A DNA stretch of 64,000 nucleotides. It comes from Gallaecimonas mangrovi. GTDB taxonomy: Bacteria > Pseudomonadota > Gammaproteobacteria > Enterobacterales > Gallaecimonadaceae. The stretch spans positions 2,921,501 to 2,985,500 of the forward strand of contig NZ_CP031416.1 of the NCBI RefSeq assembly GCF_003367375.1. The letters run 5' to 3'. The notes under the pieces were generated by a model. It was given only the letters and a program-made list of their open reading frames with translations, was not told the DNA's origin and did not search any database. Positions 10,806 through 16,628 of this stretch are shown in pieces (the first letter of the stretch is position 1; every line of letters starts with the position of its first letter). Made by a program: the position numbers and the translations under genes.

Positions 10806-11405
10806 CTAAAACCAATCCCAGAAGCCTTTTTTAAGGTCGTCTTTACAGCCCCAGTATTGCTTGGCAAAAAGCTTGGCGCGGTGCTCAACTTTGCGGGCCA
10901 CCTTCTTCAGCCACGGCTTTTTATTGTAGGTTTTCTTAATATAACCGCCCCAGCCTTCGTGGTAAGCCAGGTATTGGCCGTAAGCGTCCCACTTGGATAA
11001 ACCGGTAAGCTGATGGGATTTGTAGATATACCAGCCCATAAAATCGAGGGCGTCGTCAAAATCGTCGCGGTCAGCGCCCCAGTTGTCGGTTTCACGCATG
11101 TAGTCTTCCCAGGTGTCATCTTTGGCCTGGGCATAACCGTAGGCACTGGATACCCTGCCCCAGGGAATAAACCCCAGCAGATAATCACGCGGCGGTAAGG
11201 CGTCGTAACGAAAGCTCGATTCCTGGTAGAGAATGGCAAAAAGCACATGCGGTGGCACACCCCATTTGGCCTTTACGTCCATGGCGGCATCGTACCAATC
11301 GTCTTTTTCCCTAAAGATGGAACACAGGTTATTGGGGTTCTTTGGCGGTGCCGTGGCGCAACCTGTCATAAAAAGCAGCGGCAACAGCAAAAGAATTATC
11401 TTCAT
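10806..11405 (-). CDS. Lipoprotein lytic transglycosylase, SLT domain
   Basis: The 199-residue product starts with a lipoprotein signal (MKIILLLLPLLFMTGCATA, lipobox MTGC, Cys16). The SLT domain contains the catalytic glutamate in ILYQESSFRYDA, followed by SSAYGYAQAKDDTW, which corresponds to the GLMQ-type block, and AYHEGWGGY. It would cleave peptidoglycan glycan strands without water, anchored in the outer membrane. The size and layout fit EmtA/MltE-like or Slt-like small enzymes. I give no symbol because orthology is uncertain. Confidence 0.88.
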   Translation of the reverse strand: MKIILLLLPLLFMTGCATAPPKNPNNLCSIFREKDDWYDAAMDVKAKWGVPPHVLFAILYQESSFRYDALPPRDYLLGFIPWGRVSSAYGYAQAKDDTWEDYMRETDNWGADRDDFDDALDFMGWYIYKSHQLTGLSKWDAYGQYLAYHEGWGGYIKKTYNKKPWLKKVARKVEHRAKLFAKQYWGCKDDLKKGFWDWF

Positions 11406-11449
11406 TTACAACGTCTTCCAATTTTATTGTGAAAAAGTGCTAACGCTGG

Positions 11450-11477
11450 CGAACTTTCACAAGGCAGGGACCTCTAA
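11450..11477 (+). promoter_or_regulatory. Sigma-E-type promoter of small RNA candidate 1
   Basis: GAACTT (11451-11456) is followed after 16 bases by TCTAA (11473-11477). The sigma-E consensus, from knowledge of E. coli, is GGAACTT, a spacer of about 16 bases, then TCTGA/TCAAA. Transcription should start near 11484. Confidence 0.6.
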
Positions 11478-11483
11478 CCTAAT

Positions 11484-11548
11484 GCAAGCAGCAAAACTTT
11501 TCATGTCATATCCCTGATGGGAGGCTTTAATAGCCTCCCTTTTTTTTT
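11484..11548 (+). ncRNA. Candidate sigma-E-dependent small RNA, copy 1
   Basis: The predicted transcript is about 65 nt. It starts six to seven bases after a sigma-E-like -10 element and ends at a terminator: GGGAGGC (11519-11525) pairs with GCCTCCC (11533-11539), then nine T. The unpaired 5' part contains AAGCAGCAAA, TTTTCATG and TCCCTG, all shared with copy 2. I find no credible open frame. Sigma-E small RNAs such as MicA, RybB and VrrA use an unstructured 5' end to silence outer-membrane protein mRNAs with Hfq. This RNA has that shape but not their sequence. I infer a similar role. The 3' overlap of its upstream region with the transglycosylase promoter is a possible complication. Confidence 0.6.
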
Positions 11549-11593
11549 ATCCTGGCGTCAAACTGAACGAAAAAACCTTTCCAACAACATCCG

Positions 11594-11621
11594 GGAACTA
11601 ATCCTTAAGGCGCCACTCTGA
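11594..11621 (+). promoter_or_regulatory. Sigma-E-type promoter of small RNA candidate 2
   Basis: GGAACTA (11594-11600), 16 bases, then TCTGA (11617-11621), an exact -10 match. Spacing is the same as in copy 1 and in the element upstream of uppP. Confidence 0.65.
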
Positions 11622-11627
11622 ATACCT

Positions 11628-11694
11628 GAAAGCAGCAAACTTTCTTTTTCATGACATCTTCCCTGTAAGGAGGCCTCTGGCCTCCTCTTTTTTT
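11628..11694 (+). ncRNA. Candidate sigma-E-dependent small RNA, copy 2
   Basis: The predicted transcript is about 67 nt and lies 80 bases after copy 1. The terminator stem AGGAGGCC (11668-11675) pairs with GGCCTCCT (11679-11686), then C and seven T. Shared blocks with copy 1 are AAGCAGCAAA, TTTTCATG and TCCCTG in the same order, while the loop and outer stem differ. That pattern suggests an old tandem duplication with compensating change. It ends 41 bases before the trans-sulfuration gene, so an alternative reading is a leader or attenuator for that gene. Two complete promoter-terminator units make independent RNAs more likely. Confidence 0.6.
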
Positions 11695-11735
11695 ATCTGT
11701 ATGCTGTTAGCATCCCAAGCACTACCGAGGTCAGG

Positions 11736-12860
11736 ATGCGCAAGAAAACCGCCCTAATCCATGGACAGCATATCAACGATCCCATGGGTTCTATTAGTCC
11801 CCCTATTTATCAAAGCAGTTCCTTTACCCACATCGGCAACGAAAGCGAGTTTCGCTATAGCCGCGGTGGCAATCCTACCCGCCAAAATCTCGAAGAGTTA
11901 ATTGCGCATCTTGAAGGTGGCGACCGCGGCTTTGCCTTTGCTACCGGTATGGCAGCAATTACCACCGTAATGATGATGCTCAAAAGCGGTGATGAACTGG
12001 TGGTTTGCGCTGACATCTACGGCGGCACCTTCAGGGTTATCGAACAAGTGCTGAGCCAGATGAACGTGGCGATACGGTTCGTTGATGCATCCAATGTTGA
12101 GGCCGTGCGTCAAGCGGTAAGCCCCAAAACCAAGATGCTTTATGTCGAAACCCCGTCCAACCCGCTGCTAAAAATTACCGACATTGCCGCCATGGCAGAA
12201 ATTGCCAAGGCCCATCAAATTCCGCTGGTGGCGGATAACACCTTTGCCACGCCCTACTGGCAAAACCCGCTAGCCCATGGCGCCGATATCGTGATCCACA
12301 GTGCGACCAAGTACCTGGGCGGCCACTCCGACTTGATGGCCGGTTTAGTGGTTACCCGTGACGATATCTACGGAAAACGCGTCAAGCAGCTACAAAACAC
12401 CATTGGCGCTGTGTTGGGCCCACAGGATAGCTTTTTGCTGATTCGCGGCATACGCACCCTTGGGCTGCGCATGGAAGCCATTGAAGCCAATACCCGGGTA
12501 TTGGCCGACTGGCTGCAAGCACATCCGGCTGTGAAAAAGATCTATTACCCGGGCTTTGCCGAAACGGCGGATAAAGCCGTTCACGAAAAGCAGTGCTCAG
12601 GCTATGGCGGGGTAATTTCTATTGAACTAGCAAGCCAGGAAAAGGCTGAGGAAATGGCCAAACGCTGCCGCTACTTTGTGTTAGCCGACAGCTTGGGCGC
12701 CGTAGAAAGCATGCTGAACATCTCCGCGCAAATGAGCCACGGGTCTTTCCCGGTTAAAGAACGCTTGGCACTTGGCATTACCGACAGCCTGGTGAGATTG
12801 TCGGTTGGTATCGAGGATGTTGAAGATTTAAAAGAGGACTTAGCCCAAGCGCTTGCCTAA
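11736..12860 (+). CDS. Trans-sulfuration PLP enzyme (cystathionine gamma-synthase / gamma-lyase / beta-lyase family)
   Basis: The 374-residue product is a Cys/Met-metabolism PLP enzyme. It shows SSSFTHIG and the YSRGGNPTRQNLEELIAHLE block, ATGMAAI for phosphate binding, VADNTFATPYW, and the PLP lysine in HSATKYLGGHSD. Enzymes of this fold either join homoserine esters with cysteine or cleave cystathionine or homocysteine. Sequence alone does not settle which; MetB or MccB-like activity is plausible. ATG 11736 has GAGG five bases upstream. It is convergent with gshA, and both work in sulfur amino-acid/thiol metabolism. Confidence 0.88.
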   Translation: MRKKTALIHGQHINDPMGSISPPIYQSSSFTHIGNESEFRYSRGGNPTRQNLEELIAHLEGGDRGFAFATGMAAITTVMMMLKSGDELVVCADIYGGTFRVIEQVLSQMNVAIRFVDASNVEAVRQAVSPKTKMLYVETPSNPLLKITDIAAMAEIAKAHQIPLVADNTFATPYWQNPLAHGADIVIHSATKYLGGHSDLMAGLVVTRDDIYGKRVKQLQNTIGAVLGPQDSFLLIRGIRTLGLRMEAIEANTRVLADWLQAHPAVKKIYYPGFAETADKAVHEKQCSGYGGVISIELASQEKAEEMAKRCRYFVLADSLGAVESMLNISAQMSHGSFPVKERLALGITDSLVRLSVGIEDVEDLKEDLAQALA

Positions 12861-12890: not shown

Positions 12891-14462
12891 TCAGGCTACA
12901 CCTTGAGAGAGGTCGCTAAAGTAATCGGCCAGGAAATCATCAAAGCTTTCGCTGTCGCTGGCTTCAAGTTCCGCTTGCGCCTTTAAAGAACGCTCGGTCT
13001 CTGCGTCAAAGAATGCTTCGCTCCAGCGTTCATAAGCGCGGCCCAATAGCGCTTCTCGGTGCGCCTCGGCCAGGGTAACCCCAAGCTTACCGCTGGTATG
13101 GGATTTCAGTGCCACCAAGATCCGCGCTGACGGCGTTAGGGTTGGGTCGGCAATTTTAGCTTGCTGCTCTTTAAGGCTATTTTGATAGCCATGGCCGCCT
13201 TGCTGCGCATCTAAGCCTTCGGCAATACGCTGCCAAACCGGCATCAGTTCAGCAAACCAGTCATCCATGGAAATGGCTTGGCCCTTTTGGGTCAGCATCA
13301 GCCCGGGTTTGCGCCCTTCAAGCACCGTGGCCTGGAAGTTTTTCAGGTTCTCATTCCACTGCGTGTTATCAAGGGGCTCGGCATCTAACAACAGGCAACC
13401 CAGCAAGAAAATGTCCATAAAGCGCACGGTGTTAATATCAACGCCGGTTGGGCTAAAGGGGTCCACGTCTAGTGCCCGCACTTCAATATATTGCACGCCG
13501 CCACGAGCCAGGGCTTCTGTGGGTTTTTCGCCGCGCTCGGTTACCCGTTTGGGACGAATGGGGGCGTAGAGTTCGTTTTCAATTTGCAGCAAGTTGCTGT
13601 TGAGCTGGCGATATTCACCGTCAACCTTAACGCCTATCTTGGCAAATTCTTCACTGGGCTGAGCGATGACTTGGCGAAGATCGCGAATATAACCTTCGAT
13701 GCTGTTGTGATCGATGCGCAGGCCCGCTTGCGCGGAGCTGGTATAACCAAGATCGGATAGCCGCAACGAGGTGGCATAAGGCATATACAAACTGCCTGAC
13801 GCGCTTTTTTCAAATGCCAAGTGATGCTTTTGGCCACATAAAAAGGAGCCACAAAGAGCAGGCGAGGCGCCAAACAAATAAGGCAACACCCACACCAAAC
13901 GCCGGTAATTGCGCAGCAGGCCCATATAAGCTGACGATTGGTCACCATCTGGCCAGTGCTGCCAAAAACCCTCTGGCAAGGAGAAGTTGTAATGGACACC
14001 GGCAATTAACTGCATCACCGGCCCATAGCGATTCTTCAAGCCTTCCCGGTAAACCCGCTTCATGCGGCCAATGTTGGACTGGCCAAAGTCAGCCAGGGGA
14101 ATTTGTTTTGGGTCCTTGATATAGCAAGGCATCGACAAGGGCCACAGGCGCTCTTGCCCAAGGTGCTTGAAGGTATAAACATGAATATCGGTAAGCGATG
14201 CCATTAACTCATCAACTGAATCCGTCACCGGCGTGATGAACTCCATCAAGTTCTCAGCAAAATCGGTGGTGATAAATTCGTTGGTCAGGCTCGCACCTAA
14301 CGCCTTGGGATGTGGCGTCAGCGCCATAGTGCCTTGTGGCTCAATGCGCAGCGCTTCACGTTCTACACCACGCTTTGGCGCAAATAACAGGGGCAATGCA
14401 TCCTGGGCCGCCAATGCATCGAGGCGGCGTTGCAACTGGTTCAGCAAAGAAAACCTTCCCAT
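12891..14462 (-). CDS. gshA: Glutamate-cysteine ligase
   Basis: The 523-residue GshA makes gamma-glutamylcysteine, the first and limiting step of glutathione synthesis. Family text includes GVEREALRI near the N-terminus, TTDFAENLMEFITP, the MKRVYREGLKNRYG block and GVQYIEVRALDVDPF. The length fits the proteobacterial type 1 enzyme (about 518 residues). It is a single gene, and the shared upstream region with gltP is about 225 bases. Confidence 0.96.
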   Translation of the reverse strand: MGRFSLLNQLQRRLDALAAQDALPLLFAPKRGVEREALRIEPQGTMALTPHPKALGASLTNEFITTDFAENLMEFITPVTDSVDELMASLTDIHVYTFKHLGQERLWPLSMPCYIKDPKQIPLADFGQSNIGRMKRVYREGLKNRYGPVMQLIAGVHYNFSLPEGFWQHWPDGDQSSAYMGLLRNYRRLVWVLPYLFGASPALCGSFLCGQKHHLAFEKSASGSLYMPYATSLRLSDLGYTSSAQAGLRIDHNSIEGYIRDLRQVIAQPSEEFAKIGVKVDGEYRQLNSNLLQIENELYAPIRPKRVTERGEKPTEALARGGVQYIEVRALDVDPFSPTGVDINTVRFMDIFLLGCLLLDAEPLDNTQWNENLKNFQATVLEGRKPGLMLTQKGQAISMDDWFAELMPVWQRIAEGLDAQQGGHGYQNSLKEQQAKIADPTLTPSARILVALKSHTSGKLGVTLAEAHREALLGRAYERWSEAFFDAETERSLKAQAELEASDSESFDDFLADYFSDLSQGVA

Positions 14463-16209: not shown

Positions 16210-16286
16210 TGGCGCGACCGGGAGGACTCGAACCTCCAACCGCCTGGTTCGTAGCCAGGTACTCTATCCAGTTGAGCTACGGTCGC
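16210..16286 (-). tRNA. tRNA-Arg (anticodon ACG), copy 1
   Basis: This 77-base cloverleaf has acceptor stem GCGACCG/CGGTCGC, anticodon stem CCTGG/CCAGG with loop CTACGAA, T-loop GTTCGAGTC and encoded CCA. It is the last gene of the minus-strand tRNA cluster and is identical to copy 2. Confidence 0.97.
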
Positions 16287-16312
16287 AGAAGTTGGGTTGT
16301 GTTTTATCTGAA

Positions 16313-16389
16313 TGGCGCGACCGGGAGGACTCGAACCTCCAACCGCCTGGTTCGTAGCCAGGTACTCTATCCAGTTGAGCTACGGTCGC
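16313..16389 (-). tRNA. tRNA-Arg (anticodon ACG), copy 2
   Basis: Same 77-base sequence as copy 1, with CCA encoded. It lies 26 bases away from copy 1, so the two are probably cut from one precursor. Confidence 0.97.
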
Positions 16390-16445
16390 AGTCTTCAGAC
16401 AAAAAACGCTTACCAATGGTAAGCGCTATTCAACACATTTCAAGA

Positions 16446-16522
16446 TGGCGCGACCAGGAGGACTCGAACCTCCAACCGCCTGGTTCGTAGCCAGGTACTC
16501 TATCCAGTTGAGCTATGGTCGC
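16446..16522 (-). tRNA. tRNA-Arg (anticodon ACG), copy 3 with changed acceptor pair
   Basis: It is identical to the other two except that acceptor pair 7-66 is A-U instead of G-C (GCGACCA/TGGTCGC). The paired change keeps the stem intact, so the gene is functional by this test. CCA is encoded. It lies 15 bases downstream of tRNA-Ser. Confidence 0.97.
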
Positions 16523-16537
16523 ATCTTGAAGTGTCGA

Positions 16538-16628
16538 TGGCGGTGAGGGGGGGATTCGAACCCCCGATGGGCTTTTGACCCATACTCCCTTAGCAGGGGA
16601 GCGCCTTCAGCCTCTCGGCCACCTCACC
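16538..16628 (-). tRNA. tRNA-Ser (anticodon GCT)
   Basis: This 91-base class II tRNA has acceptor GGTGAGG/CCTCACC, anticodon loop within CTCCCCTGCTAAGGGAG, a long variable arm (TATGGGTCAAAAGCCCATC region), T-loop GTTCGAATC and encoded CCA. It is first in the tRNA cluster, downstream of csrA, an arrangement common in gammaproteobacteria. Confidence 0.97.

Follow-up and report, generated by a model that had tools for sequence, protein, structure and literature searches.

The window analysed here, a 64,000-nucleotide stretch of the Gallaecimonas mangrovi chromosome, carries two tandem promoter-to-terminator units (A and B) beside gshA that, with a probability of about 0.8, encode sibling trans-acting sRNAs transcribed by σE at the gshA-linked micA position and doing a MicA kind of job with a different seed. 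That figure applies to the explanation as a whole, including the origin of the locus through tandem duplication, after which copy number would have come to vary within the genus. Unit anatomy, conservation, synteny, pairing energies and the presence of rpoE and hfq were established by computation. In the proposed mechanism, envelope stress would cause σE to make each RNA as a transcript of 65–67 nt, which Hfq would hold via its U-rich parts and U tail. The single-stranded 5′ half would then pair with mRNAs of outer membrane proteins (OMPs) along a stretch that runs from the Shine-Dalgarno sequence through the start codon into the first signal-peptide codons, with UCCCUG contacting CAGGGA, UUUUCAU contacting AUGAAAA and GCAGCAAA contacting UUGCUGC-like codons. 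Translation of ompA and the TIGR04219 beta-barrel genes would thereby be blocked, and that of the major porin probably too. A sequence-only reading of the same DNA had proposed OMP-repressing sRNAs of the σE type, a proposal supported by conservation in all five genomes of the genus, by the promoter class found at rpoE in each of them, and by predicted pairing with ompA and TIGR04219 genes.

Anatomy, setting and conservation of the tandem units

The −35 and −10 elements, 16-base spacers, 65- and 67-base transcripts and terminators claimed in the sequence-only reading can all be read directly in the sequence (Table 1), and the blocks that it described as common to the two transcripts, AAGCAGCAAA, TTTTCATG and TCCCTG, are present in that order in both. 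For unit A, G11484 is taken as the first transcribed base on the model of E. coli micA, whose +1 G follows TCTGA after six bases; applying this distance gives starts identical to those first proposed, 11484 and 11628. The 5′ part of each unit has little predicted structure, and both transcripts outdo most shuffles in folding, with z values of −3.1 and −2.0 and with 1 and 9 of 200 shuffles equally good. The earlier claim that the terminator stems differ with pairing kept stood in part: a hairpin is present in all ten copies of the genus and the stems are partly different, but RNAalifold found two-sided changes in just two of eight pairs.

Table 1. Features of the locus in window coordinates, with the TIGR04219 genes given by their own locus
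Feature	Position	Strand	Basis or remark
Lytic transglycosylase (SLT_4), left neighbour, at the place of E. coli luxS	10806..11405	-	Pfam PF19489, 266.9 bits
σE-type promoter of unit A: GAACTT, 16 bases, TCTAA	11451..11477	+	Sequence, genus alignment
−35 of unit A, GAACTT	11451-11456	+	Direct reading
−10 of unit A, TCTAA	11473-11477	+	Direct reading
Putative sRNA unit A, ~65 nt	11484..11548	+	Start by analogy with E. coli micA; A-type copy in 5/5 genus genomes
Seed region of unit A, GCAAGCAGCAAAACTTTTCATGTCATATCCCTG	11484-11516	+	
Intrinsic terminator of unit A	11519..11548	+	Stem-loop 11519-11539, T run 11540-11548
σE-type promoter of unit B: GAACTA, 16 bases, TCTGA	11595..11621	+	Sequence, genus alignment, pattern search
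−35 of unit B, GAACTA	11595-11600	+	Direct reading
−10 of unit B, TCTGA	11617-11621	+	Direct reading
Putative sRNA unit B, ~67 nt, inferred start G11628	11628..11694	+	Sequence, alignment, predicted ompA pairing
Seed region of unit B, GAAAGCAGCAAACTTTCTTTTTCATGACATCTTCCCTG	11628-11665	+	
Intrinsic terminator of unit B	11668..11694	+	Stem-loop 11668-11686, T run 11688-11694
PLP-dependent enzyme of Cys/Met metabolism, lying between sRNAs and gshA, outside the RNA units	11736..12860	+	PF01053
gshA, glutamate-cysteine ligase, synteny anchor in common with E. coli micA	12891..14462	-	TIGR01434, 626.8 bits, cut-off 393.3
Two adjacent TIGR04219 outer-membrane beta-barrel genes, strongest predicted unit A targets	L330:16104-17753 (G000)	-	

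The gene order in the window is lytic transglycosylase (minus strand), the sRNAs (plus), the enzyme gene (plus) and gshA (minus), compared with luxS (minus), micA (plus) and gshA (minus) in E. coli, an arrangement that also appears in the accessible text of two papers (PMC2956633, PMC4618604). The side of gshA and the strand thus agree with the MicA position, with one gene intervening and the lytic transglycosylase standing in the place of luxS. Farther along, four consecutive tRNA genes lie on the minus strand at 16213–16628.

A family-level search yielded five genomes, all of one genus and including the window genome (G000). The locus is kept in all five, with two copies in G000, G001 and G004, three in G002 and one in G003, ten in all. 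Alignment A1 holds all ten copies, and alignments A2 and A3 and the covariance models R1 (promoter plus transcript) and R2 (transcript alone) hold eight, leaving out the second copy of G004, which was misaligned, and that of G001, which had diverged. The eight aligned copies agree without exception in GAACT (−35), in the opening two bases of the −10, in the inferred +1 G, in AAGCAGC and TTTCATG and in several columns of the terminator; no column of the promoter spacer is constant. The −10 of the G003 promoter is poor. The second G001 copy (L005:1378-1482, minus strand) retains a GAACTA-16-TCGAA promoter and a terminator around a strongly changed body, which is wholly different and GC-rich, a possible case of seed replacement. 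Both rpoE (NCBIfam, above cut-off) and hfq are present in all five genomes, and in each of them GAACTT-16-TCATA or GAACTT-16-TCACA lies upstream of rpoE, a motif suggesting that the genus reads the same promoter class as that of units A and B.

Relation to MicA and other known sRNAs

The suggestion that the units belong to an undescribed family holds as far as Rfam is concerned, as no sRNA family scored at its gathering threshold, either in the window or in those genus loci that were scanned. The MicA family RF00078 had no match at gathering in the window, it was not among the 15 Rfam matches at E≤10 within 11400–11740, and a search of the five genomes of the genus at E≤1 gave no match to it. 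Rfam also includes a RybB family, which had no match in the window at gathering. The best sub-threshold match, ncS16 (24.8 bits, where gathering requires 48), was dismissed, its paired part being mainly the terminator hairpin. Plasmid and E. coli collections contained no DNA match to the locus. The sequence-only reading had likened the units to MicA in size and promoter class and not in sequence; the likeness goes further than size and promoter class, to the place at the side of gshA, the GAAAG start of unit B and the TCCCTG block.

Across 295 genomes of the order, R1 reached E≤0.01 per genome in 16 genomes beyond the genus, of which, judged by eye, L111 (family f2), L116 (f6) and L117 (MicA) are real and the rest mostly gene-end terminators. 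Of 21 MicA loci, 18 were hit by the same model at the place of micA, with E values from 4e-5 to 0.28; L147, L148 and L149 were missed. When applied to 34 hand-chosen loci, 27 with units or related transcripts and seven without, it recovered the four units of L223, three in L221 and the pair in each f2 locus (E 3e-6 to 0.011), matched L210 partially, missed the units of L209, L213, L218, L219 and L224, and gave no match in the seven flanks without units. The transcript-only model R2 matched f2 and f13 units six times (E 0.002 to 0.03) and the f7 units weakly (best E 0.27), and its response to MicA in the 21 loci was at best weak or partial (E 1.9). R1 as a proof of MicA homology by itself is weakened by this result. 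As R2 finds f2 and f13 but MicA only weakly, and as RF00078 is absent, the f1, f2 and f13 transcripts are read as related on their sequences, a group that does not take in MicA.

What links the units to MicA is position, promoter, length, two short motifs (GAAAG at +1 in unit B, and TCCCTG) and the predicted target. Like MicA of E. coli and Salmonella as described in the accessible sources, the units lie 3′ of gshA and opposite to it in strand, and the gene to their left shares the strand of gshA. They also have its σE-type promoter (here GAACTT or GAACTA, 16 bases, TCTAA or TCTGA) with six bases from −10 to +1, its length of about 70 nt, its short GAAAG (unit B) and TCCCTG (both units) motifs, and predicted pairing at the ompA ribosome site. 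They differ from it in their tandem arrangement, two or three copies in every genus genome but G003, with the body of one copy degenerate, in the lytic transglycosylase that replaces luxS and the enzyme gene before gshA, and in a distinct seed that extends past the start codon into signal-peptide codons. Whether the units are true MicA orthologues by descent, changed past recognition, or independent RNAs at the same place is evenly balanced. Strand and side, promoter spacing, the two motifs, the ompA target and the R1 hits in most MicA loci speak for descent, while the weakness of R2 at micA and the silence of RF00078 across the genus speak against it, and R1, with its three missed loci, may detect merely promoter plus terminator. 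Common descent of the window pair and MicA is plausible.

Several other sRNAs resemble the pair in part. OmrA and OmrB are neighbouring related sRNAs in which the 5′ seed is kept and the 3′ part differs, as in the siblings described here, but they answer to a different regulator and lie at another locus, whereas here the promoters are of the σE type and one to four copies occur at gshA over the families. VrrA of Vibrio cholerae is σE-dependent and represses ompA through pairing with its 5′ region (PMC2628432), the same promoter class and the same target region as predicted here; according to the available descriptions it is set apart by a length of about 140 nt, against 65 and 67 nt at gshA, and by its place at VC1741–VC1743. 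MicV is said to have the seed of VrrA in the text available for PMC7602753. RybB of Salmonella and E. coli is described in the portion seen of PMC1804206 as a σE sRNA acting on several omp mRNAs, as predicted for units A and B, but it has another location and no match in the window. The accessible text of a 2015 review (PMC4618604) presents MicA as belonging to the Enterobacteriaceae, apart from a single partial match outside them. A 2025 paper (PMC12235514), by its accessible text, proposes a MicA homologue in Bordetella: CT_532 of Bordetella pertussis, an ompA-pairing sRNA whose identity to MicA, about 60 per cent, is confined to the final 46 nt of the latter. Compared by description, CT_532 is likewise a proposed ompA-pairing sRNA beyond the enterobacteria, but it is reported to be RpoE-independent, in contrast to the σE-type promoters here.

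Predicted targets and alternative readings

Pairing was computed with RNAduplex between each RNA and the region from −40 to +40 around start codons, with 440 genes of G000 as background; as the program ignores mRNA folding and the background start codons were set by a simple rule, ranks among the 440 are approximate. Unit B pairs with the OmpA-like gene of G000 (PF00691 and PF13505) at −36.5 kcal/mol, covering the Shine-Dalgarno sequence and the start codon, and none of the 440 background genes is equally strong. In this predicted duplex UCCCUG lies on CAGGGA in the Shine-Dalgarno region and CUUUUUCAU lies on AUGAAAAAG at the start codon. Unit A pairs with ompA at −28.2 kcal/mol, and the two background genes that are at least as strong are both TIGR04219 OMP genes (234 and 215 bits, cut-off 105), an adjacent pair that was met without being sought. 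The same pair ranks second and third for unit B. Against 60 shuffled sRNAs, the ompA pairing has z values of −4.0 (A) and −6.4 (B). Within the genus, nine of the ten copies pair with the ompA of their own genome better than all 100 shuffles, including the A copy in five of five genomes; the tenth is the second G001 copy, which has lost the seed and whose ompA pairing is not above shuffles (8 of 100 as strong).

MicA and ompA of E. coli are an established pair, and as a yardstick they gave −25.5 kcal/mol, with 3 of 200 shuffles equally strong. Units A and B showed no pairing with E. coli ompA, where 86 and 54 of 100 shuffles equalled them, and E. coli MicA paired fairly well with the ompA of G000 (2 of 100 as strong), so specificity is not absolute. 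In 12 genomes of other families, one of 22 units (unit 1 of G233) exceeded 100 shuffles against its own ompA-like gene, the rest having 2–76 of 100 as strong; clear pairing with ompA was thus not seen in those families. A search for a single long target with the pattern CATGAAAARNTTTGCTGC, allowing at most two mismatches, returned the antisense strand of the sRNA itself and two further places.

In the RNAduplex predictions ompA and the TIGR04219 genes stand at or near the top, and the outcome for porins is mixed. A Porin_4 gene among the 440 ranks fourth for unit A, yet pairing with porins is weak for both RNAs of G004 (equalled by 9 and 36 of 100 shuffles), for unit B in G000 (5 of 100) and for the second G001 copy (30 of 100). 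Among nine OMP starts of G000, FadL and L314 are mid-rank or bottom for both RNAs and several others are moderate. That the RNAs are σE sRNAs with mainly non-OMP targets, the ompA match reflecting the AUGAAAA and AGGGA common in start regions, is unlikely. In addition to the uneven porin pairing, this reading could draw on the high rank of certain non-OMP genes, namely a small phosphatase-like protein (third of 440 for A) and the first, fourth and fifth of 440 for B (by eye, genes for an arginyl-tRNA synthetase, an RNA methyltransferase and a spermidine-synthase-like protein), and on the numbers of signal-peptide-like genes in the top 20, seven for A and four for B, which are within the shuffle range (maxima 8 and 6). 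Against it stand the place of ompA ahead of all 440 genes for B, the TIGR04219 genes as the best two of 440 for A, the failure of shuffled sRNAs of the same composition to reproduce the ranking, and the pairing of the A copy in every genus genome. The 72 signal-peptide-like genes of the 440 also have better mean pairing than the rest with both RNAs, by a margin that none of 60 shuffles attained.

Another possibility, raised in the sequence-only reading, is that the units form a transcribed leader or attenuator of the Cys/Met enzyme gene, with terminators acting in cis. The gene is on the same strand, with its start codon 41 bases beyond the T run of unit B, and it adjoins the RNAs in G001, G002 and G004 as well. 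This reading is nonetheless disfavoured and quite improbable: there are two separate promoters, each with its own terminator; the seed retains complementarity to ompA; and the enzyme gene has no match in the G003 locus, which retains an RNA, so that the gene lies beside the RNAs in four of five genomes. In the f2, f7, f13 and most f20 flanks, moreover, the nearest unit is within a few hundred bases of gshA, which leaves no room for the enzyme gene. A leader of the downstream enzyme was consequently rejected as the main reading, its association with the RNAs not being conserved throughout. The enzyme gene itself may possibly be of horizontal origin. Proteins of Bacillota match it at ≤56 per cent, in a collection that may omit near relatives, and a scan of genome contigs gave many Bacillota and no near relatives among the 80 loci listed.

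That the units are chance sequence and never transcribed is scarcely credible: their conservation pattern and copy-number variation across five genomes argue against it, as does the chance level of complete units. The promoter pattern GAAC[TA][TA]-N15-17-TCN[GA]A, searched on both strands, has two matches in the window, both followed by a terminator 35–130 bases downstream as the definition of a unit demands, which confirms the two units at 11451–11694. Thirty dinucleotide shuffles of the window gave a mean of 1.4 promoter matches each and no complete unit overall, and 400 kb of the same chromosome gave three promoter matches and no complete unit. Terminator-like sites by themselves are not significant (3 in 11000–12200 against 1.3 expected), and a σ70 scan of the region of the units found no promoter.

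gshA flanks across the order

A search of the 295 genomes of the order located gshA in 239, and 107 flanks from 105 genomes (G014 and G021 twice) were searched with a script for σE-type promoters followed by terminators. At a score of at least 6 and in the last 800 bases of the flank, units were found on the strand opposite gshA in 27 of 107 flanks and on the gshA strand in none of the 107. Eighty of the regions were hand-picked among the gshA matches listed to spread over families, with L261 (G169) taken for its model match rather than via its gshA match, although gshA adjoins. The family counts, based on all units printed by the script (score at least 5, whole flank), thus describe a non-random sample in which f7 (19 flanks) and f6 (17) are heavily represented.

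The Rfam MicA model exceeds its cut-off in families f18 and f11. The script was positive in two of six f18 loci, and all five f18 genomes behind these six have RF00078 above cut-off beside gshA; in f11, RF00078 lies at gshA with no unit by the script, which also missed MicA in L167 and L170, where the U tails are interrupted. From its MicA matches, f18 would be the enterobacteria. Beyond these two, five families (f1, f2, f5, f7 and f20) have σE-type units at the gshA flank and a sixth, f13, has a related transcript there in four of four cases, the families holding single copies or tandem arrays with differing seeds. Units were found in 19/19 flanks of f7, 5/7 of f20 (one of them 862 bases from the end), 2/2 of f2, both tandem pairs, and the single flank of f5. 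No convincing unit was found in the sampled flanks of f6, f8, f10, f12, f16, f21 and f25, or in the singly sampled f4, f14, f15, f17, f23 and f27; two low-scoring f21 matches, at distances of 930 and 1415 bases and with spacers of 13 bases, were discounted. At gathering, Rfam detected tRNAs only in 18 loci (14 of other families, four of the genus).

Individual flanks differ in content. Four f7 flanks, L223, L221, L225 and L220 (G233, G133, G146 and G159), carry four, three, three and two consecutive units 3′ of gshA, with TCCCT or TCCCC cores and no Rfam match at gathering. Both f2 flanks (L182:3061-3258 in G005 and L261:2499-2701 in G169) carry a tandem pair of short units with TGCAAGAGTTGTTTTTTCAT, the first of each pair being found by R2. 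A σE-type unit with GTTTTCATGTTCATCATCTCCCTGG in f6 (L116:1501-1645, minus strand, in G181) lies away from gshA beside a gene that by eye resembles glutathione peroxidase, and it too appears by eye to be midway between MicA and the window RNAs. The gshA 3′ flank of f4 (L183 in G007) has an inverted repeat (CAGGTCGTCACTAGCATTTC ... GAAATGCTAGTGACAACCTG) in place of an sRNA unit.

Slightly more likely than not, the gshA flank is an old and fast-changing home of σE sRNAs in the order, in which promoter, TCCCT core and terminator would be kept, seeds rewritten and copies multiplied, up to four in tandem, as each lineage fits its own OMPs; MicA would be one single-copy outcome and the window pair another. 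Such arrays, or σE sRNAs at gshA outside the enterobacteria, are undescribed among the literature matches listed, as seen in excerpts and mostly from papers outside subscription. The locus in the window is conserved, duplicated, of the σE type and at the MicA position, and repression of OMPs by its RNAs is a strong prediction. The pair offers a way into the wider set of gshA-flank arrays, in which the positional counterparts allow one to ask how an sRNA keeps its job while its seed and target sites change, and the tandem copies whether siblings divide targets between them. For the genus of the window, the concrete prediction is that ompA is clamped in two parts, at its Shine-Dalgarno sequence and at its start codon.
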